From Alphaproteobacteria bacterium (GTDB lineage: Bacteria; Pseudomonadota; Alphaproteobacteria; Rhizobiales; Aestuariivirgaceae): a DNA stretch of 38,693 nucleotides. Below the pieces are notes generated by a model. The model did not search any database. It saw only the letters and a program-made list of their open reading frames with translations, and was not told the origin of the DNA. Location: positions 1 through 38,693 of the forward strand of contig JAGRLX010000180.1 in NCBI GenBank assembly GCA_020441605.1, read 5' to 3'. The translations under genes and the position numbers were made by a program. Below are positions 8,571 through 27,946 of the stretch, one piece after another; positions within the stretch are counted from its first letter, which is position 1, and the number at the start of each line of letters is the position of its first letter.

Positions 8571-8670
8571 TGTCTTTTTTCTCTCGTCTGACCACGCTCG
8601 CCCCCAGAACTGCTGGTGCCACAATGGGAGCTTCGCGCAGGATTTCCCTGTCCAAACGTTAACGGGTTTG

Positions 8671-12652: not shown

Positions 12653-14512
12653 ATGCCTTTCAGCCGCCGCTCACTCCTGAAACTCGCCGGACTTTCGCCG
12701 CTGGCAAAGCTCGCCGGCATCCAGATCGCGCGGGCCGATGATCGCGACTTCCGCCATGCTCTGACGCTCTTCGATGACATCAAATATGGTCCTGACTTCA
12801 TACATTTCGACTATGTGAACCCGGATGCGCCAAAGGGCGGTCGGGTGAGGTTTGGCATCGTTGGGTCCTTCGATAGCCTCAACCCTTATACGTTCAAAGG
12901 CGAAGCCGGCGTGGCCGTCAGCAATGAGAACCTGCTGACATCCTCACTCGACGAGCCATCCACCGAATATGGCCTGGTGGCCAGCGAAGTGTGGCATCCT
13001 GAGGATCGTTCCCTTGTCGTCTATCGGCTGCGGCCTGAAGCACGTTTTCATGACGGTAAACCGGTAACGCCGGACGATGTGATCTGGAGCATGCAGGCGC
13101 TGAAGGAGGCCCACCCATCCTATAACTTCTACTACAAGAACGTGCAGAAGGCCGAGCAGACCGGCGAGCATGAGGTCACTTTCACATTCACCGAGAAGGG
13201 CAATCGTGAACTGCCACTGATCACCGGGCAGCTACCGGTGCTCCCCAAGCACTGGTGGACGGCTAAAGATGAGAAGGGCCGGCAACGCGACATTCGTGAG
13301 ACGACGCTGGAAGTTCCGCTCGGGTCAGGAAGCTATGTTGCGACCGAAGTCCGGCCAGGTGTCTCGATCAAGATGAAGCGGGTACCCGACTACTGGGGCA
13401 AAGACTTACCGGTCAGCCGCGGAACCGACAATTTCGATGAGATCGAGTATATCTATTTTCGCGATGCCAACGTGGCTTTCGAGGCTTTCAAGGGCGATCA
13501 GTATGACTGGCGGCTGGAGAACTCTTCAAAGATGTGGGCCACCGGATACGACTTTCCGGCTGTCCGGGATGGGCGGGTGGTCAAGGAGGACATCCAGCTG
13601 CAACAGGTCGAAGGCATGCAATGCTGGGCGATGAATATCCGCCGCGCGAAATTCCAGGATGTCCGGGTACGGGAGGCACTCAATTTCGCCTTTGACTTCG
13701 AATGGTCCAATACCAACTTGTTCTATGGGCAATATGCGCGGTCTCGCAGCTACTTCAACAATTCGGACATGGAGGCGAAGGGCCTGCCGTCCAAGGAGGA
13801 GCTGGCGATTCTCGAGCCGCTGAGGGACCAGTTGCCGGAAGAAGTCTTCACTAAAGAGTATGCGCCACCATTGAACGATACCCCACAAAACCGGCGCAAG
13901 AATCTGCGGCAGGCGACCATGCTCCTCGATGCTGCGGGGTGGAAGGTCACGCAGGAGGGCGGCAAGTCGATTCTCAAGAATGGCAATGGCGAGGGGCTGG
14001 ACATCGAGTTCCTGCTCGATTCGCCGTTGTTTGAGCGTATCGCGCTGCCCTACAAGCAGCAGTTGGAGTTACTCGGCATCAACGTGACGGTAAAGACGGT
14101 GGACAGCGCTCAATATGAACGACAGGTCCAGACCTTCGATTACGATATCGTCGTCGGAAACTGGCCGCAGTCACTGTCGCCAGGCAACGAACAACGCAAT
14201 TTTTGGTCAAGTGATTCCGCCGACCGCAATGGCAGCCGCAATCTCGTAGGTATCAAGAACCCAGCCATCGACAAGCTCGTCGAGACGGTGATCTTCGCAC
14301 CTGATCGGCAAGCGCTTATCATCGCCTGCCGGGCACTTGACCGCGCACTCATCTGGAATCATTACGTGGTTCCGATGTGGTACATCGCCTATGAGCGGAC
14401 CGCTCGCTGGGACCGCTTCGGTCGGCCGCCGATACTGCCCATCCTGTCAACGGGATTCCCGACCGTCTGGTGGTGGGATGAGGAGAAGGCCAGGAAGGTA
14501 GCAACCAAGTGA
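12653..14512 (+). CDS. yejA: YejA-like oligopeptide ABC transporter binding protein (first copy)
   Basis: This 619-residue extracellular solute-binding protein (family 5) of a Yej-type importer binds peptides in the periplasm; relatives handle microcin C, antimicrobial peptides or muropeptides. The N terminus SRRSLLKLAGL is a twin-arginine-type signal, with cleavage likely after IARA (about residue 28). HFDYVNPDAPKGG just after the signal is a YejA hallmark shared with the next gene. The C terminus PTVWWWDEEKA is also typical. It is the first gene of an eight-gene run; the 61 bases after the upstream terminator must hold the promoter. Two adjacent GANTC sites lie there (12623-12632). Confidence 0.9.
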   Translation: MPFSRRSLLKLAGLSPLAKLAGIQIARADDRDFRHALTLFDDIKYGPDFIHFDYVNPDAPKGGRVRFGIVGSFDSLNPYTFKGEAGVAVSNENLLTSSLDEPSTEYGLVASEVWHPEDRSLVVYRLRPEARFHDGKPVTPDDVIWSMQALKEAHPSYNFYYKNVQKAEQTGEHEVTFTFTEKGNRELPLITGQLPVLPKHWWTAKDEKGRQRDIRETTLEVPLGSGSYVATEVRPGVSIKMKRVPDYWGKDLPVSRGTDNFDEIEYIYFRDANVAFEAFKGDQYDWRLENSSKMWATGYDFPAVRDGRVVKEDIQLQQVEGMQCWAMNIRRAKFQDVRVREALNFAFDFEWSNTNLFYGQYARSRSYFNNSDMEAKGLPSKEELAILEPLRDQLPEEVFTKEYAPPLNDTPQNRRKNLRQATMLLDAAGWKVTQEGGKSILKNGNGEGLDIEFLLDSPLFERIALPYKQQLELLGINVTVKTVDSAQYERQVQTFDYDIVVGNWPQSLSPGNEQRNFWSSDSADRNGSRNLVGIKNPAIDKLVETVIFAPDRQALIIACRALDRALIWNHYVVPMWYIAYERTARWDRFGRPPILPILSTGFPTVWWWDEEKARKVATK

Positions 14513-16323
14513 TCCGGCCGGGACTTGCTCTTGCTGTCGTGTTGATCGGCGCGACGGCAGCCATGGCGGCTCCACGCCATGGTCTCTCGGTCTTTGGTAC
14601 GCTCAAATATTCCGAAAACTTTCAGCACTTCGACTATGTAAACCCCGACGCGCCGAAGGGTGGCAAGATGTCGCTCATCGGGCCGGTGCCGCGGGAGACT
14701 TTCGACAGCTTCAACGGCTACATCCTGCGTGGCGATCCGGTTCAGGGTTTCGAATTGATGTTCGATTCGCTGATGGCACGGGCCATGGACGAACCCGATG
14801 CGGTCTATGGGTTGGTGGCTCGATCCGCGGATGTCGCCGACGACCGCATGAGCGTGACATTCGCGCTGCGCCCCGAAGCGGCGTTCGCCGACGGCACGCC
14901 ACTCACGGCGGATGACGTCTGTGACAGTTTCCGACTGCTGTCGACCGAAGGAAACGAGCGCATCAAGATTACCATTCGCGATGTCACGTCATGCGACATC
15001 CTGGGGCCGCACGAAGTCCGCTATCGTTTCCATGGCAAGAAGACCCGCGATCTTCCCCTCACCATTGCCGAATTGCCGATCTTCTCGAAAGCCTACTACA
15101 GCAAGGTCGATTTCGCGAAATCGACCCTGGAGCCGCCGCTCGGGTCCGGTCCCTACAAAGTCAGGGACTTCAAGCCCGGTCAGTATGTCGCCTATGTGCG
15201 GCGGACGGACTACTGGGCCCGCAATCTACCGGTCAATGCAGGTCGCTTCAATTTCGACGAAGTTCGCTTCGAGTATTTTCGCGAGAGAACCGCCGGACTC
15301 GAAGCCTTGAAGACCGGCATTCTGGATCTCCGGGAGGAATACACGTCCCGCGACTGGGCGACGGCCTATGATTTTCCCGCACGGCGCGATGGGCGAGTGA
15401 TCCAGGAGGTGCTCCCCGACGAGACCCCGTCCGGGGCCCAGGGATTCTTCTTCAATCTGCGAAGAGACAAATTCCACGACGTCCGGGTTCGGAAGGCACT
15501 CAATCTCGCCTTCGATTTCGAGTGGTCCAATGCCAATCTCTTCTATGGGCTGTATAGGCGGACCGAAAGCTTTTTCGAGCTTTCGCCACTCAAGGCCGAG
15601 GGACCGCCTTCGGACGCTGAACTGGTCCTACTCTCGCCTTATCGCGACACAATTTCCCCCGAGGTCTTCGACATTCCGGAACCACAACCCGTCAGTGACG
15701 GATCGGGACAGGATCGCAAGCTGCTGCGGCGAGCGTCGCAGTTGCTCGACGATGCCGGTTGGACGACGGAGGGCTCAGAACGGCGCAACAGCCGCGGCGA
15801 AACGCTGAGTATAGAGTTCCTGATCGATAGCCCGGTCTTCGAGCGGATCATCGCTCCCTATGTGAAGAACCTTAGGCTCTTGGGAATCGACGCAGCCATC
15901 CGCAGCGTCGATGAAGCGCAATATCAGTCGCGCATCAAGAGCTTCGACTACGACATCGTCTCCAGCCGCTTTGCGACAGGGTTGACGCCGGGCGACAGCC
16001 TCAGGATCTTCTTCGGATCTGCCTCGGCCAATGCGCCTGGCAGCTACAACATGTCCGGTATCGCATCACCAGAACTCGACGCACTCATCGATCACATCGT
16101 CGGCGCGGAAAACCGGGAAGACCTCGAGGTGGCCGGGCGAGCGCTCGACCGGGTGCTGCGAGCAGCCCATTTCTGGGTGCCCAACTGGCACAAAGGGAGT
16201 CACTGGATTGCCTATTGGGACAAGTTCGGCAGGCCGTCGACTAAACCAAAATACGACCGTGGCATCGTCGATACCTGGTGGTATGACGAGGTCAAGGCCG
16301 CGCGAATCGCACAAGGAAACTGA
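14509..16323 (+). CDS. yejA: YejA-like oligopeptide ABC transporter binding protein (second copy)
   Basis: This second family 5 binding protein has 604 residues and is homologous throughout to its neighbour (shared HFDYVNPDAPKGGK, FEWSNANLFYG, DTWWYDE). It starts at a GTG overlapping the upstream stop (GTGA), so translation is coupled. Its signal is a plain Sec type (MIRPGLALAVVLIGATAAMA), unlike the twin-arginine signal of copy one. Different export routes and diverged sequences suggest two ligand specificities feeding one YejB/YejE channel. Tandem yejA genes are known in Rhizobiales. Confidence 0.9.
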   Translation: MIRPGLALAVVLIGATAAMAAPRHGLSVFGTLKYSENFQHFDYVNPDAPKGGKMSLIGPVPRETFDSFNGYILRGDPVQGFELMFDSLMARAMDEPDAVYGLVARSADVADDRMSVTFALRPEAAFADGTPLTADDVCDSFRLLSTEGNERIKITIRDVTSCDILGPHEVRYRFHGKKTRDLPLTIAELPIFSKAYYSKVDFAKSTLEPPLGSGPYKVRDFKPGQYVAYVRRTDYWARNLPVNAGRFNFDEVRFEYFRERTAGLEALKTGILDLREEYTSRDWATAYDFPARRDGRVIQEVLPDETPSGAQGFFFNLRRDKFHDVRVRKALNLAFDFEWSNANLFYGLYRRTESFFELSPLKAEGPPSDAELVLLSPYRDTISPEVFDIPEPQPVSDGSGQDRKLLRRASQLLDDAGWTTEGSERRNSRGETLSIEFLIDSPVFERIIAPYVKNLRLLGIDAAIRSVDEAQYQSRIKSFDYDIVSSRFATGLTPGDSLRIFFGSASANAPGSYNMSGIASPELDALIDHIVGAENREDLEVAGRALDRVLRAAHFWVPNWHKGSHWIAYWDKFGRPSTKPKYDRGIVDTWWYDEVKAARIAQGN

Positions 16324-16331
16324 CGTCATCC

Positions 16332-17441
16332 ATGGGCGCCTATATCCTGAAACGCATATTGCTGATGATACCGACCTTGTTCGGCATCATGCTGATGACT
16401 TTCGCTGTCATCCAGTTCGTTCCGGGCGGACCGGTGGAGCAGGTCATCGCCAAGATGCAGGGAACCGATTCCGATTCAACCGGCCGGATTAGCGGCAACA
16501 CCGGAAGCGAAGCCGGTGGCGGCAGCCAGGCGCCGGGCGGCAGCGATGCGACTACGTTCAAATACCGCGGCGCCCAGGGCCTTGACCCCGAATTCATCAA
16601 GTCTCTGGAGCGGCAATTCGGCTTCGACAGGCCCGCGCATGAGCGGTTCCTGCTGATGATTGGGAATTACCTGACCTTCAATTTCGGTGAAAGTTACTTC
16701 CGCGACCGCAGCGTGGTGAGCCTGATTGTCGAGAAGATGCCGGTATCCATTTCACTGGGTCTGTGGCTGACACTCATCCAGTATCTGGTGTCCATTCCGC
16801 TCGGCATCCGCAAGGCAGTGCATGACGGGTCCAATTTCGACATATGGACGTCGGGCGTCATCATCATCGGCTACGCCATCCCGAGCTTCATCCTGGCGAT
16901 CATGCTGATCGTGCTCTTTGCCGGCGGAAGCTACTTCAACTGGTTTCCGCTGCGGGGCCTCACCTCTGACAATTTCAGCCAGCTGAGTGTGTTGGGGAAG
17001 ATTGCCGACTATGCCTGGCATTTGGCGCTACCCCTCTTCGCTATGGGTATCGGCAGCTTCGCAACTATGACGATGCTGACCAAGAATTCGTTCCTGGACG
17101 AAATAAGGAAGCAGTATGTCACGACGGCGCGGGCCAAGGGCCTCACCGAGCGTCAGGTGCTCTATGGTCATGTTTTCCGGAATGCCATGCTGCTGGTGAT
17201 TTCCGGTTTTCCAGGCGCCTTCATCGGCGCCTTCTTTGCCGGCTCACTGCTGATTGAAACCATCTTCTCGCTCGATGGCCTGGGCTACCTGTTCTACAAG
17301 GCGGCTCTCGACCGCGATTATCCGATCGTCTTCGCCAACCTCTACATTTTCACATTGGTCGGCCTCGTTGTGCAGCTCATCTCCGATTTGACTTATACCT
17401 GGATCGATCCTCGTATCGATTTCGAAAAGCGGGACGTCTAG
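16332..17441 (+). CDS. yejB: Yej-type ABC transporter permease YejB
   Basis: This 369-residue inner-membrane permease is close to the length of E. coli YejB (364). The N terminus YILKRILLMIPTLFGIMLM is the first helix, followed by a long periplasmic insertion rich in Gly and Ser (about 50-80) that is typical of YejB rather than DppB. The EAA-type cytoplasmic loop TTARAKGLTERQVLYGHVFRN contacts the ATPase (only part quoted: ARAKGLTERQVLYGH). It lies 8 bases after the second yejA and 3 bases before yejE. Confidence 0.94.
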   Translation: MGAYILKRILLMIPTLFGIMLMTFAVIQFVPGGPVEQVIAKMQGTDSDSTGRISGNTGSEAGGGSQAPGGSDATTFKYRGAQGLDPEFIKSLERQFGFDRPAHERFLLMIGNYLTFNFGESYFRDRSVVSLIVEKMPVSISLGLWLTLIQYLVSIPLGIRKAVHDGSNFDIWTSGVIIIGYAIPSFILAIMLIVLFAGGSYFNWFPLRGLTSDNFSQLSVLGKIADYAWHLALPLFAMGIGSFATMTMLTKNSFLDEIRKQYVTTARAKGLTERQVLYGHVFRNAMLLVISGFPGAFIGAFFAGSLLIETIFSLDGLGYLFYKAALDRDYPIVFANLYIFTLVGLVVQLISDLTYTWIDPRIDFEKRDV

Positions 17442-17444
17442 GCG

Positions 17445-18548
17445 ATGCGGCCCTTCAGAGTTTCAGCGCTCAATGCCCGGCGCTGGCAATTGTTCAAGGC
17501 GAACCGCCGCGGCTACTGGTCGTTTTGGATCTTTTCGATCCTCTTCCTGCTCTCGGTTTTTGCACCGTTTCTTGCCAACGACCGGCCGGTTTTGGTGTCA
17601 TACAAGGGTGAGTTCCTCTATCCAACCTTTGTTGACTACCCGGAGTCCAAGTTTGGCGGGTTTCTTGCCCGTACCGATTTCCGCGACCCGGTCAATCAGG
17701 AGGAGATCGCGGCCAATGGCTGGATCCTCTGGCCGCCCATCCGCTATTCCTACAACACGGTGAACAACGAGCTCCCGCAACCAGCGCCTTCGACACCTGT
17801 GTTCCGCCTCAGCCGCGAGGAGGCCTGCGCCAAATATCCGGCCCGCGCCGAGGATCCCAATTGCACCTTTGGCAACATGAATTGGCTAGGTACCGACGAC
17901 CAGGGGCGCGACGTGGTCGCCAGACTCATCTACGGATTCCGGATTTCGGTGGCCTTCGGTCTGATTCTGACGATCTTCTCCTCGATCGTCGGCATGGCCG
18001 CCGGAGCGGTACAGGGTTATTTCGGCGGCTGGACCGATCTCATATTCCAACGCTTCATCGAGATGTGGACGTCGATGCCGACGCTGTATCTTCTCATCAT
18101 TCTCGCCGCCTTCATCACACCCACCTTCTGGATCCTGTTGCTCATCCTCCTGCTATTTTCATGGACCGGCCTGGTCGGGTTGGTGCGGGCGGAATTCCTC
18201 AGGGCACGGAACTTCGAATATGTCAGGGCAGCTCGCGCCCTTGGTCTGTCAGACACCAAGATTATGTTCAAGCATCTCCTACCCAATGCGGTGGTTTCAA
18301 CCATCACGTTCATGCCGTTCATTCTATCCGGGTCGGTGACGACGCTCACGTCGCTTGACTTCCTCGGCTTCGGACTGCCGCCCGGTTCGCCTTCGCTCGG
18401 CGAGTTGATTGCCCAGGGCAAGAACAATCTGCAAGCCCCGTGGCTCGGCCTAACCGGCTTCTTCGTGGTTTCGGTCATGCTGTCGCTACTGGTATTCATA
18501 GGCGAGGCGGTGCGCGACGCACTTGACCCCCGGAAGACCTTCACATGA
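17445..18548 (+). CDS. yejE: Yej-type ABC transporter permease YejE
   Basis: This 367-residue permease is the partner of YejB. The N-terminal region includes RRGYWSFWIFSILFLLS and a large periplasmic segment (about 40-145) containing NEELP-like and PAPSTP motifs. MNWLGTDDQGRDVVAR (about 144-159) is characteristic of the DppC/YejE class. The EAA loop is VRAARALGLSDTKIMFKH. Its stop overlaps the next ATG (ATGA), giving coupled translation. Confidence 0.94.
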   Translation: MRPFRVSALNARRWQLFKANRRGYWSFWIFSILFLLSVFAPFLANDRPVLVSYKGEFLYPTFVDYPESKFGGFLARTDFRDPVNQEEIAANGWILWPPIRYSYNTVNNELPQPAPSTPVFRLSREEACAKYPARAEDPNCTFGNMNWLGTDDQGRDVVARLIYGFRISVAFGLILTIFSSIVGMAAGAVQGYFGGWTDLIFQRFIEMWTSMPTLYLLIILAAFITPTFWILLLILLLFSWTGLVGLVRAEFLRARNFEYVRAARALGLSDTKIMFKHLLPNAVVSTITFMPFILSGSVTTLTSLDFLGFGLPPGSPSLGELIAQGKNNLQAPWLGLTGFFVVSVMLSLLVFIGEAVRDALDPRKTFT

Positions 18549-19543
18549 GCGAACCGCTTCTCAGCGTTCAGGATCTTTCGGTCGCTTTCGCACAGGGCGG
18601 CCGAACATCGCTTGCGGTCGATAGGGTGTCGTTCTCAATCGATAGGGGCGAGACGCTGGCACTTGTCGGGGAGTCCGGTTCAGGCAAGTCAGTATCGGCA
18701 CTATCAATTCTCAAGTTGCTCCCCTACCCGGCAGCCTCGCATCCATCGGGATCTGTTGTTTTCAAGGGGCAGCAGCTGCTCGATTCCGACGAACGCGACC
18801 TGCGGCGTGTGCGCGGTAATGACATTACAATGATTTTCCAGGAACCGATGACCTCGCTCAACCCGGTGCGGACCATCGGCGACCAGATCGCCGAAGCCAT
18901 CGGCTTTCACCGGCCGGTATCGCGCCGGCAGGCGCTCAACGATGCGGCCGAGCTGCTGAGCCTGGTCGGCATTCCCGAGGCGCGGCGGCGGCTGTCGAGC
19001 TATCCCCATCACCTCTCAGGCGGCATGCGGCAAAGGGTGATGATTGCCATGGCGATCAGCTGCGAGCCGCGGGTCATCATCGCCGACGAGCCGACGACAG
19101 CCCTCGACGTGACGGTCCAGGCGCAAATCCTGGAACTGCTCAAATCCCTGCAGAAGCAGACCGGCATGGCGATGATCTTCATCACCCACAACCTGGGCGT
19201 GGTCGCGGAAGTGGCCGACAGGGTGATGGTGATGTATGCTGGACGCCTTGTGGAGGAAGCACCGGTCGGCGCGCTCTTTGCCCGGCCGCTCATGCCCTAT
19301 ACCTCTGCCCTGCTGAAATCGGTGCCGCGCATGGATACCGCGGGGCGGCGAGACGTGGCCCTGGAGGCCATCCCCGGCACGGTGCCCGACCCGTCTCATC
19401 AGCCGCCGGGTTGTGCCTTCCATACCCGGTGCAGGTTCCATCAGCCGGGTCTGTGCGATGGGTCCATTCCGCCCGTGAGCGAGGCGGCCGAAGGCCATAG
19501 ACTGCGTTGCTTGCGCTGGCGCGAGATTGGCGGGCGGACATGA
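18545..19543 (+). CDS. Peptide ABC transporter ATP-binding protein (YejF N-half equivalent, DppD-like)
   Basis: This 332-residue ATPase drives the YejB/YejE importer. Walker A GESGSGKS is at 42-49, the signature LSGGMRQRV near 158-166, and Walker B IIADEP with TTALD follows. The C-terminal oligopeptide-transporter extension has cysteines in [10 protein letters not shown] and LCDG, where related DppD proteins hold an iron-sulfur cluster. In E. coli both ATPase halves are fused in YejF (529 residues); here they are two genes joined by ATGA overlap. Confidence 0.92.
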
Positions 19544-20571
19544 CCGGGACCTCGCCCTTGCTCACGGTCGCCGACCTTAAGAAGCATTTCGCCGTGGGCT
19601 CGCAATTCTTCGGCGGCAAGAAATCGGTCAAGGCTGTCGATGGTATCAGCTTCACGCTGGACCGCGGCGAGGTTCTTGGCCTTGTGGGGGAATCGGGTTC
19701 GGGAAAGTCGACCGTGGGACGCACGGTCTTGCGGCTTCTGCGTCCCGATGCCGGCCGGATCGTGTTCGACGGCGAGGACATCACCGATCTCAGTCGCTCA
19801 GCACTTCGGGGCATAAGGCGCAAGATGCAGATGGTGTTCCAGGATCCGTTCAGTTCGCTCAATCCGAGAATGACGGTCGAGGACATTCTTTCGGCACCGC
19901 TCAATATTCATGGGCTGGAGCGGGGCGATACGGCACGGCGCAAACGCGTCAGCGAGCTGCTCGAACTGGTCGGCCTGTCGGCCAGCCATGCCGAGCGCTT
20001 CCCGCACGAATTCTCGGGCGGCCAGCGCCAGAGGATCGGCATCGCGCGGGCGCTGGCGGTCAACCCGGAATTCCTCGTCGCCGACGAGCCAGTCTCGGCT
20101 CTCGATGTGTCGATCCAGGCCCAGGTGGTAAAGCTGCTCCTCGAGATCCGCCAGCGGCTCGGGCTGTCGATCCTGTTCATCGCCCATGATCTTGCCGTGG
20201 TCGGCTATATCTGCGACCGGATCGCGGTCATGTATCTTGGCCGCATCGTCGAGATCGCGCCGACCACGCGCCTGTTCCAGGCCCCGCGGCATCCCTATAG
20301 CGAGGCGCTTTTCTCGGCTGCGCCGGTTGCCGATCCTTCGGTGAAGCGCCAGCGTATCGTTCTGGCCGGCGACATACCGAGCCCGCTCGATCCGCCGTCG
20401 GGCTGTGCCTTCCGGACCCGCTGCCGCTATGCCCTGCCGGCCTGCGCTGCCAGCGTGCCGCCGTTGCGGGAGGTGGCGCCGGGCCATGCGATGGCCTGCA
20501 TTCGCGATGATCTGGCGCTGCAGAACTGGGATGGCAAGCCCGGCGAACCAATGTCACAGGGAGAGCCATGA
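19540..20571 (+). CDS. Peptide ABC transporter ATP-binding protein (YejF C-half equivalent, DppF-like)
   Basis: This 343-residue second ATPase has Walker [10 protein letters not shown], signature FSGGQRQRIGIARAL, Walker B FLVADEPVSALD, and a C-terminal Cys-containing extension (GCAFRTRCRY, ALPAC). I chose the ATG at 19540, overlapping the upstream TGA as ATGA. The frame stays open to a TTG at 19507, but that lies inside the upstream gene and has no support. The stop overlaps the start of the RidA-family gene, again as ATGA. Confidence 0.92.
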   Translation: MTGTSPLLTVADLKKHFAVGSQFFGGKKSVKAVDGISFTLDRGEVLGLVGESGSGKSTVGRTVLRLLRPDAGRIVFDGEDITDLSRSALRGIRRKMQMVFQDPFSSLNPRMTVEDILSAPLNIHGLERGDTARRKRVSELLELVGLSASHAERFPHEFSGGQRQRIGIARALAVNPEFLVADEPVSALDVSIQAQVVKLLLEIRQRLGLSILFIAHDLAVVGYICDRIAVMYLGRIVEIAPTTRLFQAPRHPYSEALFSAAPVADPSVKRQRIVLAGDIPSPLDPPSGCAFRTRCRYALPACAASVPPLREVAPGHAMACIRDDLALQNWDGKPGEPMSQGEP

Positions 20572-20975
20572 TGAAAAGACAACTGATCTCGTCCGGGTCG
20601 AAGCTCGAAGAACTGGCGAGCTATAGCCGGGCGCTGCGCTACGGGAACCAGGTCTATCTTTCCGGCACCACCGGTTACGACTATGCCACCATGACCATCA
20701 GCCCCGACGCGGCCGAGCAATGCCGGCAGATCTTCCGCAACGCCGAGAAGGCACTCGCGGCGGCGGGCGCAACGCTCAGGGAGGTCGTCCGCATCCGGAT
20801 CTATTGCCCGACGGCCGAAGACTTCGAAAAGATCACGCCGGTCCTGGGCGAGAAATTCCGCGGCATCATGCCGGCCTCCACCGGTGTCGTTGCGGCGCTG
20901 GTTCGGCCGGAAATCCGCGTCGAGATCGAGATGGAGGCAATCATCGGATCGGCCGGCGACGGGACCGTGGCGTGA
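20568..20975 (+). CDS. RidA/YjgF-family protein lacking the catalytic arginine
   Basis: This 135-residue protein of the YjgF/YER057c/UK114 fold is normally a trimer. Classical RidA deaminates reactive imines using an Arg in a PARS/T motif. Here the equivalent segment is MPASTGVV (101-108), with Ser104 where that Arg is expected, although VEIEMEAI (118-125) keeps the C-terminal signature. It therefore belongs to a divergent Rid subgroup and may not deaminate imines. It is translationally coupled at both ends (ATGA with the ATPase, GTGA with the next gene), so it is a stoichiometric member of the yej operon. Confidence 0.88.
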   Translation: MMKRQLISSGSKLEELASYSRALRYGNQVYLSGTTGYDYATMTISPDAAEQCRQIFRNAEKALAAAGATLREVVRIRIYCPTAEDFEKITPVLGEKFRGIMPASTGVVAALVRPEIRVEIEMEAIIGSAGDGTVA

Positions 20976-21298
20976 CCGGAGATGTGACTGCAAGACTCAT
21001 GGCGGCGGCCTTGCCGGGGGATCTTTCTCCGCCCCTGCAGGCGCTCTGGTGGCTCTACCGGGGTGGATTCAAGATGGGGCCGGAGTGGCAGGAAGCCCAT
21101 GCCATCTGCCAATCGGGTGAGGGCCAGCGCAACCATGATCTCGTTCATGCCCTGGCGCACTGGATCGAAGGCGACATGGGCAACGCGGCCTATTGGTACC
21201 GCCGCGTGGGTGAGAGGCGCGCCGAAACGATTGCGATTGAGTGGCGCCGGATCGCCCTGGAAATTGGCGGGTCGTCCGGCGATCATTCCGTCAGATGA
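20972..21298 (+). CDS. Small conserved-type protein of unknown function
   Basis: This 108-residue soluble protein starts at a GTG that overlaps the RidA-family stop (GTGA). The frame is open further upstream to 20720, but only inside the RidA gene. Visible features are LQALWWLYRGGF (22-33), EWQEAHAICQ (38-47), and a Trp/His-rich segment ending in GDMGNAAYWYRRVG (67-80). I recall similar GDLGNAxYWYRRAG proteins annotated as hypothetical in many bacteria, but no function. Tight coupling to the yej-RidA operon argues for a linked role. Confidence 0.72.
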   Translation: MTGDVTARLMAAALPGDLSPPLQALWWLYRGGFKMGPEWQEAHAICQSGEGQRNHDLVHALAHWIEGDMGNAAYWYRRVGERRAETIAIEWRRIALEIGGSSGDHSVR

Positions 21299-21494: not shown

Positions 21495-24029
21495 ATGTCG
21501 ATCGTTGGCAACCTCACAAACCGGCAGATCGCCGCCCTGTCCACCACGGCCATCCGTCAGCTTTCGACCACCGACATCACAGAACTGACCTCGACCCAGG
21601 TGTCGGCGCTCTCTGCCACCCAGATCAACGCGATGGAGACCGAAGATCTTCAGACGTTGAACGCAACCCAGGTTCAGGGCATCTCGACGACGGCAATCAA
21701 GGGCCTGGTGGCCGATACGCTGATCGCCATGACGGATACGCAGACTGCGTCTTTTGCCACCAACCAGATTGCTGCCATGCAGGCCTATGCCCTGGAAGCG
21801 CTGGACGCCACCGACCTGCAGGGTTGGGACGCGACGCAGCTGGGGGCGATCACCTCCCGGCAACTGGCGGGATTGACGACCACGGCCTTGGCCGACTTCT
21901 CCGACACCCAGCTCGGCAGCCTGACGGCGACCCAGGTGAAGGGGCTGACCACCTCGCAGCTCAACAGCCTTGCCTCGACCCAGCTCAACGCTCTCAACGT
22001 GGCCGATCTCTCGACCACCCAGATCAAGGGCATGACGGCGACGGCCCTCGAAGCGCTGTCCACCACCCAGGCGCAATCGCTGACCACGGCGCAGATCGCG
22101 GTACTCACCACCGCCGGGCTCGACGCCCTCAGTTCCGACGAAGTCCAGGGCTGGGATGCGACGCAACTGGGAGCGCTGACTTCCCGGCAGCTGGCGGGGC
22201 TTTCGACCACGGCCTTGGCCGACTTCTCCGACACCCAGCTCGGCAGCCTGACGGCGACCCAGCTCAAGGGCCTCACGACGAGCCAGCTCAACAGCCTCGA
22301 AACCACCCAGCTCAATGCGCTGAATGCTGCCGATCTGTCGACCACCCAGATCAAGGGCATGACGGCGACGGCCCTCGAAGCGCTGTCCACCACCCAGGCG
22401 CAGTCGCTGACCACGGCGCAGATCGCGGTGCTGACCACCGCCGGGCTCGACGCCCTCAGTTCGGACGAGGTGCAGGGCTGGGATGCGACGCAGCTGGGGG
22501 CGATCACCTCCCGGCAGCTGGCGGGGCTTTCGACCACGGCCTTGGCCGACTTCTCCGACACCCAGCTCGGCAGCCTGACGGCGACCCAGCTCAAGGGCCT
22601 CACGACGAGCCAGCTCAACAGCCTTGCCTCGACCCAGCTCCAAGCCTTGAACATCGCCGATCTCTCCACCGTCCAGATCGCCGGGCTCAACGCAACCGGC
22701 ATCGGCAATCTCTCGACCACCCAGGCGCAGGGCTTCACCACGGCCCAGGTCGCGGTGCTCTCCGCCACCGCCCTTGGCGCCCTGGTGTCCGACGATCTCC
22801 AGGCCTGGGGCACGGCCCAGCTGGCGGCGATCACCACGCGCCAGCTGGCGGGGCTTTCGACTACGGCGCTGGCCAACTTCTCCGACACCCAGCTGGGCAG
22901 CCTGACCACGGCCCAGGCGCAGGGCCTGACCACTTCGCAGCTCAATGATCTGGGCAGCACCCAGCTCAACGCCCTCAACGTGGCCGATCTCTCGACCACC
23001 CAGATCAAGGGCATGACGGCGACGGCCCTCGAAGCGCTGTCCACCACCCAGGCGCAATCGCTGACCACGGCGCAGATCGCGGTGCTCACCACCGCCGGGC
23101 TCGACGCCCTCAGTTCCGACGAGGTCCAGGGTTGGGACGCGACGCAGCTGGGGGCGATCACCTCCCGGCAACTGGCGGGATTGACCGAAACCGCACTCGA
23201 AGAGTTTTCGACAACGCAGATCGGCGATCTGACCTCGACGCAGGTTCGCGGGCTTTCAACGAGCCAGCTCAATGCAATCGACTCGGCCTATTTGCAGGCC
23301 TTCGAGGTGGAGGACCTATCGACCCAGCAGGTGGCGGGCCTCGATGCGACGGCGATCGGCAACCTGTCGAGCACCCAGGCCCAGTCCCTGAGCACCGGCC
23401 AAATCTCCGCACTGTCGGCCACGTCGGTTGGCGCACTCGCCTCCGACGATATTCAGCAATGGGACGCCGGACAGCTCGGCGCGGTGACAGCCACGCAGCT
23501 CGGCGGCCTCTCGACGACCGATATCGCCGATTTCACCGATACCCAGCTGGGGAGCCTTACCGCCACGCAGCTGCGTGGCCTCACGGCAACCCAGCTCAAC
23601 GACCTCGGCACCACGCAGCTCAATGCGCTGAATGCTGCCGATCTGTCGACGGCGCAGGTTTCGGGGCTGACCGCCACGGGAATCGCCGGATTGACCGATA
23701 CCCAGGTCGCCTCGCTCTCAGCTTCACAGTTCGGGGTGATCGCCGCTTCGGCGCTCGACGCTCTGTCCACCGACGCCCTGGCGGCGCTCACCACGGACCA
23801 GGCCGCCGCGCTGACCGCAGCCCAGATCGGCGGCCTCAGCACGACCAATTTTGCGGCTCTGAGCAGCACCACGGGCATTCCATCTCTCAGTGCGGCCGGA
23901 ATCGCCGGAATATCGACAAGCCAGATCGCGGCGCTGTCGAGCACCCAGGCCAATGCATTCACCACCACCCAAATCGGGACGATGAGCGGCGCGCAGATCG
24001 AGGCCCTGATCGCCGCTGCCAACGCATAG
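21495..24029 (+). CDS. Giant octapeptide-repeat Ser/Thr-rich protein, proposed glycosyltransferase substrate
   Basis: This 844-residue protein is made almost wholly of 8-residue units with consensus S/T-x-T-Q-(I/L/V)-x-x-L (about 100 units). Thirteen octads plus a 5-residue spacer (NVADL, NAADL, NIADL or EVEDL) form a 109-residue super-repeat. Six complete copies are followed by diverged units. By my count 32 of 109 residues in the second block are Ser or Thr. There is no cysteine and no classical signal peptide; each block has one Trp near its middle (QGW, QAW, QQW). I chose the ATG at 21495 with GGAGAA upstream; the frame opens at 21435. The upstream 196-base gap shows no recognisable element. 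A GT41 glycosyltransferase follows after 19 bases. I do not recognise a characterised homologue. A surface or secreted structural role is inference. Confidence 0.85.
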   Translation: MSIVGNLTNRQIAALSTTAIRQLSTTDITELTSTQVSALSATQINAMETEDLQTLNATQVQGISTTAIKGLVADTLIAMTDTQTASFATNQIAAMQAYALEALDATDLQGWDATQLGAITSRQLAGLTTTALADFSDTQLGSLTATQVKGLTTSQLNSLASTQLNALNVADLSTTQIKGMTATALEALSTTQAQSLTTAQIAVLTTAGLDALSSDEVQGWDATQLGALTSRQLAGLSTTALADFSDTQLGSLTATQLKGLTTSQLNSLETTQLNALNAADLSTTQIKGMTATALEALSTTQAQSLTTAQIAVLTTAGLDALSSDEVQGWDATQLGAITSRQLAGLSTTALADFSDTQLGSLTATQLKGLTTSQLNSLASTQLQALNIADLSTVQIAGLNATGIGNLSTTQAQGFTTAQVAVLSATALGALVSDDLQAWGTAQLAAITTRQLAGLSTTALANFSDTQLGSLTTAQAQGLTTSQLNDLGSTQLNALNVADLSTTQIKGMTATALEALSTTQAQSLTTAQIAVLTTAGLDALSSDEVQGWDATQLGAITSRQLAGLTETALEEFSTTQIGDLTSTQVRGLSTSQLNAIDSAYLQAFEVEDLSTQQVAGLDATAIGNLSSTQAQSLSTGQISALSATSVGALASDDIQQWDAGQLGAVTATQLGGLSTTDIADFTDTQLGSLTATQLRGLTATQLNDLGTTQLNALNAADLSTAQVSGLTATGIAGLTDTQVASLSASQFGVIAASALDALSTDALAALTTDQAAALTAAQIGGLSTTNFAALSSTTGIPSLSAAGIAGISTSQIAALSSTQANAFTTTQIGTMSGAQIEALIAAANA
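21684..23645 (+). repeat. Six tandem 327-bp in-frame super-repeats
   Basis: Unit starts are at 21684, 22011, 22338, 22665, 22992 and 23319, each exactly 327 bases after the last; a diverged seventh begins at 23646. The second, third and fifth units are nearly identical at the DNA level. The fourth and sixth resemble each other more in their first half (GNL, GAL, SDD-x-Q-x-W). Because 327 is divisible by 3, copy-number change by recombination would keep the reading frame. Confidence 0.92.
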
Positions 24030-24048
24030 CCGCGGCAGGAGACCGACC

Positions 24049-26097
24049 ATGCACAGAACCATTGCCGATCTCTTTCGCGATGCTGAGCGGCTTGAAACCG
24101 GAGGCCAGGCGACCGCCGCCCTCGACCTCTACAAGGCATGGATCGCCTTCCACCCGGATGATCCGCATCTCCATGCGGCGATGTTCAACCATGCCGTGGT
24201 GCTGGCGCGGAACGGCGACAAGCTTGCCGCCATCACCGTGCTGCGCGACTGCATCCGGCTGAAGCCCGATTTCCAGCCTCCTTACATCAACCTGGGTCGG
24301 CTGCTCGAAGACATGGGGCAAGCGGGTGCTGCAGTGGGCCAGTGGCTCGGACTGGTGAACCAGCTGGCGCCGCTCAATGGCGAGGGCATGCGCCACAAGC
24401 TCATGGCGTTGCAGCAGATCGGTCGGGTGCTCGAGAATAACCACGTGGATGGGCCCGCCGAAGATGCGCTGCGCCAGTCGCTCGAACTGGACCCCGATCA
24501 GCCGGAAGTAGCGCAGCACTGGATCGCGCTCCGCCAGAAGCAGTGCAAGTGGCCCGTGGTGCAAGGCTGGGAGGGCGTTTCAAAGCACCGGATCCTCGCC
24601 AATATCTCGCCGCTTTCGACGGCGGTGATGTTCGACGATCCCGTGCTTCAGCTTGGCCGGGCCTGGCGCTATGCCCGGCAGTCGATCGCCATGCCTACGA
24701 TGCCGCCGTCGGACTTCACATCGCGGCGGGGGGCGCGGCCAGACAAGCTGCGGATCGGCTACGTCTCATCAGATCTTCGTGAACATGCCGTGGGCTTCGG
24801 ACTTTCCGAGGTGATGGAGCTTCATGACAGATCGCGCCATCGGGTCCACGCCTATTATTGCGGCATTGCGCGCGAGGACAAGACCAAGGCACGGATCCGG
24901 GCGAGTGTCGACAGCTGGGTCGACATCAACGGCCTGAGTGACGATGACGCTGCACGACGCATCTCCGATGACGGCATCGACATCCTGATCGATGTGAATG
25001 GCTATACGCGCGACGCGCGGACCGCGGTCTTTGCCCGGCGTCCGGCGCCCATCCAGGTAAACTGGTATGGTTTTCCGGGAACGATGGGCACGCCGTACCA
25101 CCATTATGTGATCGGCGATGCGCAGGTGATCCCTCCGGAGCACGAGAAATATTTCACTGAAAAGGTGCTGCGCCTGCCCTGTTACCAGCCCAACGACCGC
25201 CGGCGGACCGTGGCGCAAGAGACACCAGTGCGGCGCGATGAAAACCTGCCTGACCACGGCTTCGTCTTCTGCTGCCTCAATGGCAGCCAGAAGATCACCG
25301 CTACGATCTTCGCGGCCTGGATGCGCATTCTGGCCGGCGTTCCCGACAGCGTGCTGTGGCTGCTGGACTCCGCTGCGGACACCATGGCGAGGCTGCGGCA
25401 GATGGCGGAGGAGCAGGGGATTGCCGCACACCGCCTATGCTTTGCGCCGAAGCGGCCCAACCCGCAGCACCTGGCGCGGTATCGTTTGGCCGATCTGTTT
25501 CTTGATACCTTTCCATATGGCGCACATACGACCGCTTCCGACGCCATGTGGATGGGCGTGCCGGTGGTGACCATGCCGGGAACGAGCTTTGCCGCAAGGG
25601 TTTGCGCCGGGCTGGTCCAGGCGGCCGGCCTTCCAGACCTGATCTGCGCCGATGTCGATGGCTATGTCGCGCGGGCCGTCGCCATCGGCCGCGATCCGGA
25701 CGCATTGTCGGCGCTGCGCCAGAGGCTCGAATTGCAGCGGGACAGCTCTGTCCTGTTCGACACGCCGCGGCTCGTGCGCCATCTGGAATCGCTCTACGAC
25801 GAGATGTGGAACGATTTCGCCGAGGACCGCCAACCCGTGCCCGACTTGCGCAATCTGGATGTCTACGAAGAGATCGCCATCGCGATCAACTGCACTGACC
25901 AGGCCTTCAGCGAGGAACGTTATCGCGATCGGCTGCAGCACTGGAATGGCCATTACCCGGTGGCGCCCGACAATCGGCTCTGGAGATGGAATGACGTGGC
26001 GCCAATGGCATCGCCGGCGCGGCGGAAACCGGTTCGCCCCACCTCGAAGCTGACGGACGGAGAGACCCAGCCCCGCTGGTTGCAGAAGTCCGCCTGA
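24049..26097 (+). CDS. TPR-containing GT41 glycosyltransferase (OGT/SPINDLY type)
   Basis: This 682-residue cytoplasmic protein glycosyltransferase has TPR-like repeats at about 10-165 and a GT41 catalytic region at about 230-600. Motifs aligning with human OGT are RIGYVSSDLREHAVG (235-249, with His246), VNWYGFPGTMGTP (337-349), NGSQKI (411-416, with Lys415 matching the UDP-contacting lysine) and DLFLDTFPYGAHTT (482-495), followed by GVPVVTMPG (503-511). Family members transfer GlcNAc, glucose or fucose to Ser/Thr or Asn; the donor cannot be told here. It sits 19 bases after the Ser/Thr-rich repeat protein with a clear RBS (GGAG at about 24038), which suggests that protein as acceptor. Confidence 0.9.
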   Translation: MHRTIADLFRDAERLETGGQATAALDLYKAWIAFHPDDPHLHAAMFNHAVVLARNGDKLAAITVLRDCIRLKPDFQPPYINLGRLLEDMGQAGAAVGQWLGLVNQLAPLNGEGMRHKLMALQQIGRVLENNHVDGPAEDALRQSLELDPDQPEVAQHWIALRQKQCKWPVVQGWEGVSKHRILANISPLSTAVMFDDPVLQLGRAWRYARQSIAMPTMPPSDFTSRRGARPDKLRIGYVSSDLREHAVGFGLSEVMELHDRSRHRVHAYYCGIAREDKTKARIRASVDSWVDINGLSDDDAARRISDDGIDILIDVNGYTRDARTAVFARRPAPIQVNWYGFPGTMGTPYHHYVIGDAQVIPPEHEKYFTEKVLRLPCYQPNDRRRTVAQETPVRRDENLPDHGFVFCCLNGSQKITATIFAAWMRILAGVPDSVLWLLDSAADTMARLRQMAEEQGIAAHRLCFAPKRPNPQHLARYRLADLFLDTFPYGAHTTASDAMWMGVPVVTMPGTSFAARVCAGLVQAAGLPDLICADVDGYVARAVAIGRDPDALSALRQRLELQRDSSVLFDTPRLVRHLESLYDEMWNDFAEDRQPVPDLRNLDVYEEIAIAINCTDQAFSEERYRDRLQHWNGHYPVAPDNRLWRWNDVAPMASPARRKPVRPTSKLTDGETQPRWLQKSA

Positions 26098-26253
26098 TCC
26101 GGACGAGAGTCGACTGGCGCGGCTGATCCCGAAGGCGCCAAGGCAATCATGACACGCGCCCAGTCTCCAGCCTGGAACTGACTGGCCCAGGGCCATTGGT
26201 TGGGGCAGGTGGCCAGTTGCGATCGGCGGAGTGGCCTTTGCTCCAGAAGGCCG

Positions 26254-26282
26254 TTGACAAGTCGCGCGATCTTGAATTGTAT
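26254..26282 (+). promoter_or_regulatory. Candidate promoter of the GntR-racemase operon
   Basis: A perfect -35 hexamer TTGACA (26254-26259) is followed after 17 bases by TTGTAT (26277-26282) as a possible -10. Transcription would then begin at about 26289-26293, at or next to the ATG at 26293, giving a leaderless or nearly leaderless message. No Shine-Dalgarno sequence is present. A GGCCTT/AAGGCC hairpin (26233-26252) lies directly upstream. The rest of the gap 26098-26253 has an ACTGGCC/GGCCAGT inverted repeat (26181-26217) and no visible gene. Confidence 0.5.
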
Positions 26283-26294
26283 ACAGCGTACAAT
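26276..26294. promoter_or_regulatory. Candidate GntR/FCD operator overlapping the start codon
   Basis: ATTGTA (26276-26281) and TACAAT (26289-26294) form a perfect inverted repeat with a 7-nt spacer (centre TACAGCG). TTGTATAC-like palindromes are typical operators of FCD-type GntR regulators. The site covers the putative -10 and the first bases of the ATG of the GntR gene, the expected geometry for autorepression. Confidence 0.55.
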
Positions 26295-26973
26295 GGACAA
26301 TACACATTACATACGCCTGAACCGGGTCATCCCCGAAGAACTCGCGGACATTCTTCAGGCCGAGATCATTCATGGCCGGCTCACGCCGGAGTCCCGCCTG
26401 ACGGAAGAGGAGATCGCCCTGCGCTACGGGGTGAGCCGGTCGCCGGTGCGCGAGGCGCTGCGGTTGCTCGAGGCGGACGGATTGGTGGTGCGGGCCGCAC
26501 GGCGTGGCATCTGGGTGGCGCCACTGTCCCTGCGCGATCTGGATGAGATCTACGCTTGCCGGGTGTCGCTCGAAGGGATCGCGGCGGAGCAGGCGGCGAA
26601 GTCGGACAAGGCGGCGCTCAAGGAAAGGCTGGTAAGGCTCTTGCCCGCGATGCAGGCCGCCGCCGATGCCGGCGACGTGGAGGCCTTCTTCGATCGCGAC
26701 GTCGACGGATCGGCGCTGATCTATCAGCTTGCCGACAACACCACTCTCAATCGACTGCTGCGGGGGCTCAACAAGCAGGCGTTGCGCTATCGCTATTTCG
26801 CCTATTCACGCCGCAAGAGCACGGTAAGCCTGTCGATGAAAGGTACCGCAGCGATCGTCCATGCCATCGCCGAGAGCCGTGCGGCCCGGGCTCGGACGCT
26901 CACCGAGGAGCTGATCGGGCAGATCTGGGAGGAAATGCGTCCGGTCCTGTCCGACATGCTGGGACCGGATTGA
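26293..26973 (+). CDS. GntR family (FCD-type) transcriptional regulator
   Basis: This 226-residue regulator has an N-terminal winged helix (about 14-75; LTEEEIALRYGVSRSPVREA, then LRLLEADGLV) and an all-helical FCD effector domain (about 85-215; DEIYACRVSLEGIAA). FCD regulators usually respond to small organic or amino acids and control the adjacent catabolic operon. I chose the ATG at 26293; a TTG at 26200 gives only unrelated residues. Its stop ends 1 base before the racemase ATG, so they are cotranscribed. The operator at the start codon suggests self-regulation. Confidence 0.92.
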   Translation: MDNTHYIRLNRVIPEELADILQAEIIHGRLTPESRLTEEEIALRYGVSRSPVREALRLLEADGLVVRAARRGIWVAPLSLRDLDEIYACRVSLEGIAAEQAAKSDKAALKERLVRLLPAMQAAADAGDVEAFFDRDVDGSALIYQLADNTTLNRLLRGLNKQALRYRYFAYSRRKSTVSLSMKGTAAIVHAIAESRAARARTLTEELIGQIWEEMRPVLSDMLGPD

Positions 26974-26974
26974 C

Positions 26975-27946
26975 ATGAAACTCGCCCATAGTTTCTCGGT
27001 CATCGATTCGCACACCGCTGGCCACCCGACGCGGGTGATCCTCAGCGGCCTGCCAGCGATGAAAGGCGAAACCGTTGGCCAGCAGCGCGATCATTTTCGC
27101 GACCATCATGACCGGCTGCGCGGCCTCCTGCTGCACGAACCACGCGGCCATGCAGCGATGGTGGGACTGGTGCCGGCGGTCTCCCGGACGGCCGACTTCG
27201 GCGCCTTCTTCATCTCCTCCTACATCTATCTCGACATGTGCGGGCATGCCACGATCGGCTATGCCAAGACGTTGGCGGCGACCGGGCAACTTCCGCCGGG
27301 GACGCCGGGGTTCAGCCTCGAGACCCCCGCCGGGGTGGTCGACGTTGGCTTGACCTGGGCCGCAGATGACGAACTTGCAGCGGTCACGCTCACCAATGTC
27401 CCCAGCTATTGCGCGGTCAGGGACGTGCGGCTCGATCTTGCCGATGGCCGGAGCATCTCCGCCGATCTTGCCTATGGCGGCGTCTGGTACGCCATTGTGG
27501 ATGCGGCGGCGGCGGGCCTCAGGCTGGAACCCGATGGCGTGAGTGAGGCGCTGCGGCTGGGTGCCGAGATCAAGGCGCGCTTCAAGGGCCGGACGGATCT
27601 GCCCGCCACCGAGCCCAGCATCATGTTCATTGCCGAAGACAGTCCGCTGGAGGCTCGCCACCTCGTGGTTCTGGCCGGCAACAAGTTCGACCGCTCGCCA
27701 TGCGGAACCGGCACTTCGGCGCGTTTGGCCCAACTTCACGCCCGTGGCCGCCTCGCGGAAGGCCAGTCCTACAAGGCCAAGAGCATTCTGGGCACGTCCT
27801 TTGACGCGATCATCCGGGCGACAGGCGTTCACGAGGGCATGCCAGCGATCACGCCGCAAGTCACCGGCATGGCGCATGTGACTGCATTCAGCACAATCAT
27901 CTGCGAGGGAAGCGATCCCCTCGCGCAAGGGTTTCTATGCCGGTGA
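26975..27946 (+). CDS. Proline racemase-fold epimerase (hydroxyproline 2-epimerase/proline racemase type)
   Basis: This 323-residue cofactor-independent enzyme inverts the alpha carbon of proline-type amino acids using two cysteines. DSHTAGHPTRV (11-21) is the family N terminus. MCGHATIGYA (88-97) gives Cys89, and DRSPCGTGTSA (239-249) gives Cys243. Because Cys89 is present, and not Ser or Thr, it should be an epimerase or racemase and not a trans-3-hydroxyproline dehydratase. Substrate choice between proline, 4-hydroxyproline and another amino acid is not settled by sequence. It follows the GntR gene after 1 base and precedes an amino-acid importer. Confidence 0.9.
   Translation: MKLAHSFSVIDSHTAGHPTRVILSGLPAMKGETVGQQRDHFRDHHDRLRGLLLHEPRGHAAMVGLVPAVSRTADFGAFFISSYIYLDMCGHATIGYAKTLAATGQLPPGTPGFSLETPAGVVDVGLTWAADDELAAVTLTNVPSYCAVRDVRLDLADGRSISADLAYGGVWYAIVDAAAAGLRLEPDGVSEALRLGAEIKARFKGRTDLPATEPSIMFIAEDSPLEARHLVVLAGNKFDRSPCGTGTSARLAQLHARGRLAEGQSYKAKSILGTSFDAIIRATGVHEGMPAITPQVTGMAHVTAFSTIICEGSDPLAQGFLCR

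Follow-up and report, generated by a model that had tools for sequence, protein, structure and literature searches.

An octad-repeat protein and its neighbouring GT41 glycosyltransferase as a probable dedicated O-glycosylation unit in bacteria

Introduction

It is a known concept that the gene of a glycosyltransferase accompanies that of its exported substrate. According to the available portions of the respective reports, HMW1C of Haemophilus influenzae is a GT41 N-glycosyltransferase encoded with its adhesin HMW1 (PMC3983070), and FlmG of Caulobacter crescentus is an O-glycosyltransferase of flagellins that combines tetratricopeptide repeats (TPRs) with a GT-B domain (PMC7591256). For XcOGT and TtOGT, bacterial GT41 relatives of human O-GlcNAc transferase (OGT) with solved structures, the available passages, among them an excerpt of PMC9715652, name no bacterial acceptor and describe failed in vitro assays. 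Here we analyse a window of 38,693 nucleotides from an alphaproteobacterium of the family Aestuariivirgaceae (contig JAGRLX010000180.1, assembly GCA_020441605.1), in which the gene of an octad-repeat protein, P0001, is followed by that of a TPR-GT41 glycosyltransferase, P0002. Our results make it probable that this gene pair is a unit dedicated to O-glycosylation, with acceptors at octad positions 3 and 4 and a product that is probably exported.

The locus resembles the HMW1C/HMW1 pair in that a cytoplasmic GT41 enzyme would be encoded with the large exported protein it modifies. However, HMW1C, as described in that source, modifies asparagine, has an all-alpha domain (AAD) fold and no TPRs, and acts on a substrate of two-partner secretion, whereas P0002 has TPRs and its predicted acceptors are Thr-like. 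Like FlmG, P0002 is predicted to work in the cytoplasm as a TPR-guided O-glycosyltransferase whose target is an exported filament protein; FlmG differs in its sugar, pseudaminic acid, and its flagellin substrates, and the available text on it mentions neither GT41 nor an octad array. With XcOGT and TtOGT, P0002 shares the HTT motif, the lysine and the tyrosine at the position of human OGT Cys917, and XcOGT is its closest solved sequence (299 bits); unlike these two enzymes as those passages present them, P0002 has a candidate acceptor encoded beside it. P0001 belongs to the same octad family as Pfam PF20080 and as PDB entry 9zem 'HeliScrew4' (E 3.6e-9), and the records consulted name no function. 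Compared by sequence alone, 9zem has Pro-Glu/Asp at octad positions 3-4, where P0001 has Thr. The initial annotation of this locus knew of no characterised example of the repeat; the octad proved to be a named Pfam family, whereas searches of an open-licence library found nothing on its pairing with GT41. As far as these searches show, three things are new: the acceptor scaffold, a candidate natural substrate for an enzyme of OGT type, and a sequence-level sign of acceptor positions.

Results

P0001 (844 aa) is encoded on the forward strand by an open reading frame (ORF) with an ATG start at 21495..24029. It contains no Cys, 145 Thr, 85 Ser and 85 Gln, and 98 octads fitted with a position-specific scoring matrix span 784 of its 844 residues. 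Successive octads lie 8 residues apart in 88 of 97 cases and 13 apart in six, the latter because a 5-residue spacer, mostly of the LN-x-AD type, intervenes. The gene itself carries 4.2 tandem copies of a 327-bp unit at 21819..23179 on the same strand, with 81% match. P0001 matches PF20080 (ALTTAQ) in 22 stretches (E 1.3e-92; 303.6 bits, curated cut-off 26.4), and is thus a member of the ALTTAQ repeat proteins. Many PF20080 members in the database bear calpain-type or other domains. In one database protein, P0101 (472 aa), the TPR/N-terminal part of a GT41 runs straight into ALTTAQ octads, within which the protein ends; this is either a chimaera or a true fusion, and the latter would be a Rosetta-stone sign.

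The gene of P0002 (682 aa) follows at 24049..26097 on the same strand. The 19-base gap (24030..24048) holds AGGAG, which, read by eye, resembles a ribosome-binding site preceding the GT41 start. P0002 matches PF13844 (GT41) at E 6.2e-79 and 266.1 bits (cut-off 25) and TPR_14 at E 3.9e-8 and 33.7 bits (cut-off 23.5). After XcOGT, the best solved structures are human OGT (268 bits) and Arabidopsis SPINDLY (204 bits), while HMW1C-like enzymes reach at most 31 bits. K415 and the HTT motif (H493-T494-T495) align with XcOGT. The cysteine-free octad protein, the short gap, the TPR-GT41 gene and the two active-site features are all as the initial annotation had described them. In a GT41 tree of 99 rows, K415 is kept in 99 and H246 in 97, and K415, H246 and H493 are each present in all 22 rows of the window's clade; the HTT histidine is replaced by Gly in 48 of the 49 rows formed by the sister clade plus L056. 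P0002 therefore belongs to GT41 and is predicted to transfer sugar to protein. Two more specific assignments were rejected. As an HMW1C-type N-glycosyltransferase, P0002 scores 34.3 bits against an NCBIfam cut-off of 1000 (NF049992); an assignment as OGT proper is opposed by Tyr490, found in 22/22 clade rows at the Cys917-type pocket position.

We then compared the surroundings of related enzymes. A scan of genome contigs with the window GT41 kept 80 loci (L001-L080), and a hidden Markov model built from octads detected arrays in 33 of them. In L001-L018, which have a best-segment identity of at least 48% and are mostly labelled Alphaproteobacteria or groups within, the array lies upstream on the same strand in 18/18 loci, directly in 16, with another ORF intervening in L016 and L017. 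Locus L055 (52%) starts inside its GT41 gene, so its upstream side falls outside the locus. Among sister-clade loci, the array is directly upstream in 13, convergent in L053 and far downstream in L052. When the tree rows were labelled by locus (L052 as 'none'), arrays accompanied 22/22 rows of the window clade, 20/48 of the sister clade and 0/28 distant GT41s, the last from Planctomycetota, Paraburkholderia, Selenomonadaceae and others; L056 had none. The array label changes 8 times on the tree, compared with a mean of 32 after shuffling. Genes downstream of the pair otherwise vary between loci.

We next surveyed genomes starting from the arrays; the groups are named after the record titles of their centre loci. 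The first survey covered the order to which G003 belongs (Aestuariivirga, L006). The survey samples overlap and were not corrected for kinship, so the p-values are descriptive. PF20080 matches occurred in 10 of 199 genomes of this order, seven with at least 22 matches and three with one or two. GT41 genes (E 1e-10) were present in 32 genomes, and those of at least 600 bits in exactly the seven array-rich ones, where array and GT41 adjoin in 7/7 (Fisher p 4.5e-13); in G150, a 262-aa array piece is on the GT41 contig and a larger array on another. The 25 genomes with other GT41s gave no PF20080 match at E 1e-3. A sample of 398 genomes from the phylum of G003, Pseudomonadota, held arrays (E 1e-6) in 21, and GT41 (E 1e-30) accompanied 19 of these, compared with 102 of 377 array-free genomes (p 6e-9). 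Hence the co-occurrence across genomes expected by the initial annotation held up. In most of these 19 genomes, array and GT41 are on separate contigs; among the matches listed, they share one contig in G003, G673, G691, G390, G448, G399, G422 and G457, 0.1-29 kb apart. Of 150 genomes in the order of G012 (Duganella, L021), five held arrays, all with GT41; the two lie at most 10 kb apart in four of them, while G307 has them on different contigs. Among 350 genomes of the class of G717 (L034), GT41 accompanied arrays (E 1e-6) in 4/4 genomes, the base rate of GT41 there being unmeasured. These two surveys give weaker support, the G012 order because 80 of its 150 genomes have GT41 anyway. Genomes G415, G448 and G457 contain multiple array ORFs, many of them 2,600-6,400 aa long, alongside very large GT41-bearing ORFs (~2,460-3,780 aa), which gives the appearance of a great expansion of the system.

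Some genomes and loci weigh against an obligate pair. No array is labelled in the fetched loci of 28/48 sister-clade rows. G711 and G529 have arrays but no GT41, as judged by a P0002 search at 1e-10 and a PF13844 recheck. Window-type GT41s of at least 530 bits, assigned by score and not by tree, occur in 15 Pseudomonadota genomes; 12 of these have arrays, and G520, G442 and G490 have none even at E 1e-3. The GT41 contig of G520 is 12.5 kb long and carries type I secretion system (T1SS) genes, and its array may possibly have been lost. It is conceivable that the two proteins share only a process such as matrix or capsule formation, that the enzyme modifies another protein or glycan and that the pairing reflects co-regulation. 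The array-less sister-clade rows and the three array-free window-type genomes would fit this, as would the array-less GT41s that adjoin sugar genes or another GT41. However, the two genes stay closely linked while their other neighbours vary, Ser/Thr at octad positions 3-4 depends on the presence of GT41 (see below), and the three array-less sister loci that were checked (L030, L042 and L046) all have array ORFs of ~3,200 aa elsewhere in the genome. We consider such a different target unlikely.

Some GT41s are part of larger polypeptides. GT41 is fused to GT2 at L019:7890-11123, L031:7884-10715 and L026:4506-7847, in L019 together with a methyltransferase, which suggests that one polypeptide could extend and methylate the first sugar. 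A small S-adenosylmethionine-dependent methyltransferase gene is also found near the array/GT41/T1SS sets of L091, L092, L094, L096 and L181; it possibly acts on the glycan or the repeat.

To picture the octads in three dimensions, we consulted an AlphaFold2 model of P0001 built with nine homologues (A1; predicted local distance difference test (pLDDT) 92.4, predicted template-modelling score (pTM) 0.52). It contains 100 helices, 98 of them 4-6 residues long, with a start-to-start spacing of 8 in 91/99 cases. Each octad is thus probably one helix turn, and P0001 probably a long, corkscrew-shaped rod. The modelled helices begin at octad position 3. The preceding residue is Ser in 39 and Thr in 38 of 100 helices; N1 (position 3) is Thr in 44 and Ser in 17, N2 (position 4) is Thr in 56 and Ser in 8, and N3 is Gln in 65. 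By the principles of helix capping, position-2 Ser/Thr would read as the N-cap and position-5 Gln as the other half of a capping box, both structural. Positions 3 and 4 lie, in the model, in the first turn, where the structure does not evidently call for Thr. The initial annotation had counted on hundreds of hydroxyl acceptors. About 125 Ser/Thr at positions 3 and 4 are plausible; not every hydroxyl would qualify, since position-2 Ser/Thr sits at the modelled N-cap.

Position-specific counts agree with this division. We examined 41 array genomes of known GT41 status, using stretches around the best matches, not always those of the array nearest GT41, and an octad finder that fixes the hydrophobic anchors only and leaves positions 2-5 free. 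Added together for positions 3 and 4, the Ser/Thr fraction was 0.79-1.90 in all 36 genomes with GT41 and 0.09-0.47 in all five without (G711, G529, G134, G163 and G211, by the same search and recheck as above). This separation is complete (permutation probability 1.3e-6; Mann-Whitney 3.6e-4), while the position-2 fraction is 0.50-0.86 across both groups. GT41-free arrays have mainly Pro/Ala at position 3 and Glu/Asp/Ala/Ser at position 4. In window-type arrays, position 4 is Thr in 59% and Ser in 8%, and position 2 is Thr in 39% and Ser in 38%.

The register of the putative acceptors also differs between the two enzyme clades. Position-4 Ser/Thr is 0.22-1.0 in 27 window-type arrays (at least 0.55 in 23/27; 0.48 in L133) and 0.04-0.29 in 20/20 sister-type arrays (Mann-Whitney p 1.3e-8), with position 3 at 0.33-0.95 and 0.62-1.0, respectively; L128, L131-L133 and L129, L134 and L135 were typed by best match and the other arrays by tree. 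Cereibacter L091 is an alphaproteobacterium with a sister-clade GT41, and its array has the sister register (0.96/0.12 at positions 3/4, the values of the KD131 array, which is related to that of Cereibacter sphaeroides 2.4.1), which argues that the register follows the enzyme and not the taxonomic class.

These patterns make Ser/Thr at positions 3-4 the likely acceptors, although several points speak against this. Only five arrays are GT41-free; G134 and G163 are near copies, the repeats of G134, G163 and G211 are looser, and G529 is a LysM/SH3 protein, so there are about three independent GT41-free lineages. The main array of Rhizobium L015, L093 and L095 accompany a window-clade enzyme and yet have position 4 at 0.22-0.26, the second array of L015, which adjoins the GT41, being at 0.55. 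Moreover, a folded screw might hide its acceptors, in which case modification would have to precede folding. Thr at positions 3-4 could instead reflect folding, solubility or repeat homogenisation in some lineages, with no glycosylation and GT41 merely hitchhiking. Arrays do homogenise, as the 327-bp units indicate, and the GT41-free set is small, but GT41-free arrays keep Ser/Thr at position 2 and have mainly the residues given above at 3-4, HeliScrew4 has Pro-Glu/Asp there by its sequence, and window-type arrays strongly prefer Thr over Ser at position 4 and not at position 2. We regard hitchhiking as very unlikely. Together, the co-occurrence across genomes, the adjacency of the genes and the tracking of GT41 by Ser/Thr at positions 3-4 support the dedicated glycoprotein pair proposed initially, and it appears highly probable that GT41 and octad protein are related as enzyme and substrate.

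As to the donor, the residue at human OGT Cys917 has been proposed, in the excerpt of PMC9715652, to set the size of the pocket; XcOGT has Tyr463 there, and Tyr at this position was linked to donors smaller than GlcNAc (N-acetylglucosamine). Tyr490 of P0002 shares the alignment column of Tyr463 and is Tyr in all rows of the window clade, and a sugar smaller than GlcNAc is therefore expected; Tyr490 speaks against a GlcNAc donor. A gene for UDP-glucuronate decarboxylase (UDP-xylose synthase, UXS) is near 8 of 25 window-type loci (L001-L018, L092, L093, L095, L128 and L131-L133), namely L001, L002, L007, L011, L012, L092 (the query itself), L132 and L133; in loci L019-L080, none of 62 has UXS at 55% identity or more (best 34%). 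Two of the UXS copies were compared with solved structures and matched UXS1 with scores of 426 and 375 bits. The Rhizobium loci L015 and L095 have a UDP-galactopyranose mutase gene in place of UXS. UDP-xylose is thus the leading candidate donor in part of the clade, though two results count against it: none of three UXS-like copies scanned exceeded an NCBIfam cut-off, so that the name rests on the annotation of the structures, and the window holds no UXS; it has no UDP-galactopyranose mutase either. Only tentatively would we go further and propose that GT41 places xylose from a linked UDP-glucuronate decarboxylase on the N1/N2 Thr of every helix, giving a sugar-studded secreted rod in which enzyme subfamily and acceptor register co-evolved. 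Between GT41 and UDP-galactopyranose mutase, the two Rhizobium loci encode an uncharacterised protein (L015:9718-11256, with a PF12248 match, 70% identical to L095:14004-15257), and both also have the other acceptor register.

P0002 could alternatively be a true O-GlcNAc transferase or an O-fucosyltransferase like SPINDLY, with a wide range of regulatory targets in the cytoplasm of which the octad protein would be just one. Membership of GT41, the HTT motif and lysine common to OGT, and the ranking of XcOGT and then human OGT as best PDB matches are consistent with this. However, Y490 replaces human Cys917, and in the G003 order this GT41 type is confined to the seven array-rich genomes, which does not resemble a general regulator, although 3/15 genomes with this type in the phylum sample are array-free. 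As for SPINDLY, P0002 has Tyr at the SPY 744 position and scores lower with SPY than with OGT or XcOGT. A broad regulator is, in our view, highly improbable.

Export is suggested by neighbouring genes in relatives. By eye, P0001 has no signal peptide, its array beginning at the N-terminus, and among its closest homologues N- and C-terminal octads are alike; a non-octad domain closes several of the sister-clade array proteins. An ATP-binding cassette (ABC) transporter gene paired with HlyD occurs in 23 of 80 GT41 loci (7/33 with array, 16/47 without) and in 0/19 outgroup loci. Such pairs also neighbour the array/GT41 set on Cereibacter, Pseudoroseomonas and Pseudomonas plasmids, including pA of Cereibacter sphaeroides 2.4.1 (array WP_011836189.1, GT41 WP_011836188.1), and in G691; in G399 the pair separates array from GT41, and two Rhizobium plasmid loci are without it. 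One HlyD and one PrtD-type ABC exceed NCBIfam cut-offs. Type I export is likely for this kind of array/GT41 set and, in this organism, predicted only: two HlyB-type ABCs fall below the NCBIfam cut-off and the window has no ABC-plus-HlyD pair, both of which weaken the case. With T1SS genes near the pair in relatives and not in the window, the surface or matrix scaffold role suggested by the initial annotation would be a plausible one.

Discussion

We then propose a model in which the array and GT41 genes together constitute a dedicated O-glycosylation unit. In the cytoplasm, the GT41 would attach sugar to octad positions 3 and 4 of the repeat protein, mostly to Thr and less often to Ser; these positions correspond to N1 and N2 of each modelled one-turn helix, while position-2 Ser/Thr with position-5 Gln would cap the helix and serve a structural purpose. 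The sugar is probably smaller than GlcNAc, with UDP-xylose as the leading candidate donor in part of the clade. The sugar-coated screw of one-turn helices would then probably be exported, by type I secretion in relatives, to act as an extracellular or surface scaffold.

If so, the octad protein would be one of the few candidates for a natural target of bacterial enzymes related to human OGT. This type of locus offers a candidate acceptor with ~100 near-identical units and, in relatives, a candidate donor pathway; with these and the array/GT41/T1SS set on pA of C. sphaeroides 2.4.1, a standard laboratory strain, the question can therefore be tested. Xylose on helix Thr, if true, would give GT41 a new donor and bacterial OGT-like enzymes a natural substrate class. 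Positional covariation opens a route to acceptor sites that needs only sequence. As a protein material, a helical rod carrying glycans at regular intervals would be useful.

A small ORF of 107 aa without a Pfam match lies just ahead of the array gene (20975..21298, +) and might be part of the unit. Flanking the pair, with no evident link to it, are peptide-importer genes (YejB, which passes its NCBIfam cut-off, and an oligopeptide-type ABC ATPase) with a Rid-family protein at 12653-20571, and a GntR regulator with a proline racemase at 26200-27946. A ligase-associated DEXH helicase over its NCBIfam cut-off lies at 1561-4029. The 1141-aa product of 5199-8624 (reverse strand), which combines Sel1 repeats with a peptidoglycan-binding domain at its C-terminus, is possibly a polarity or envelope factor.

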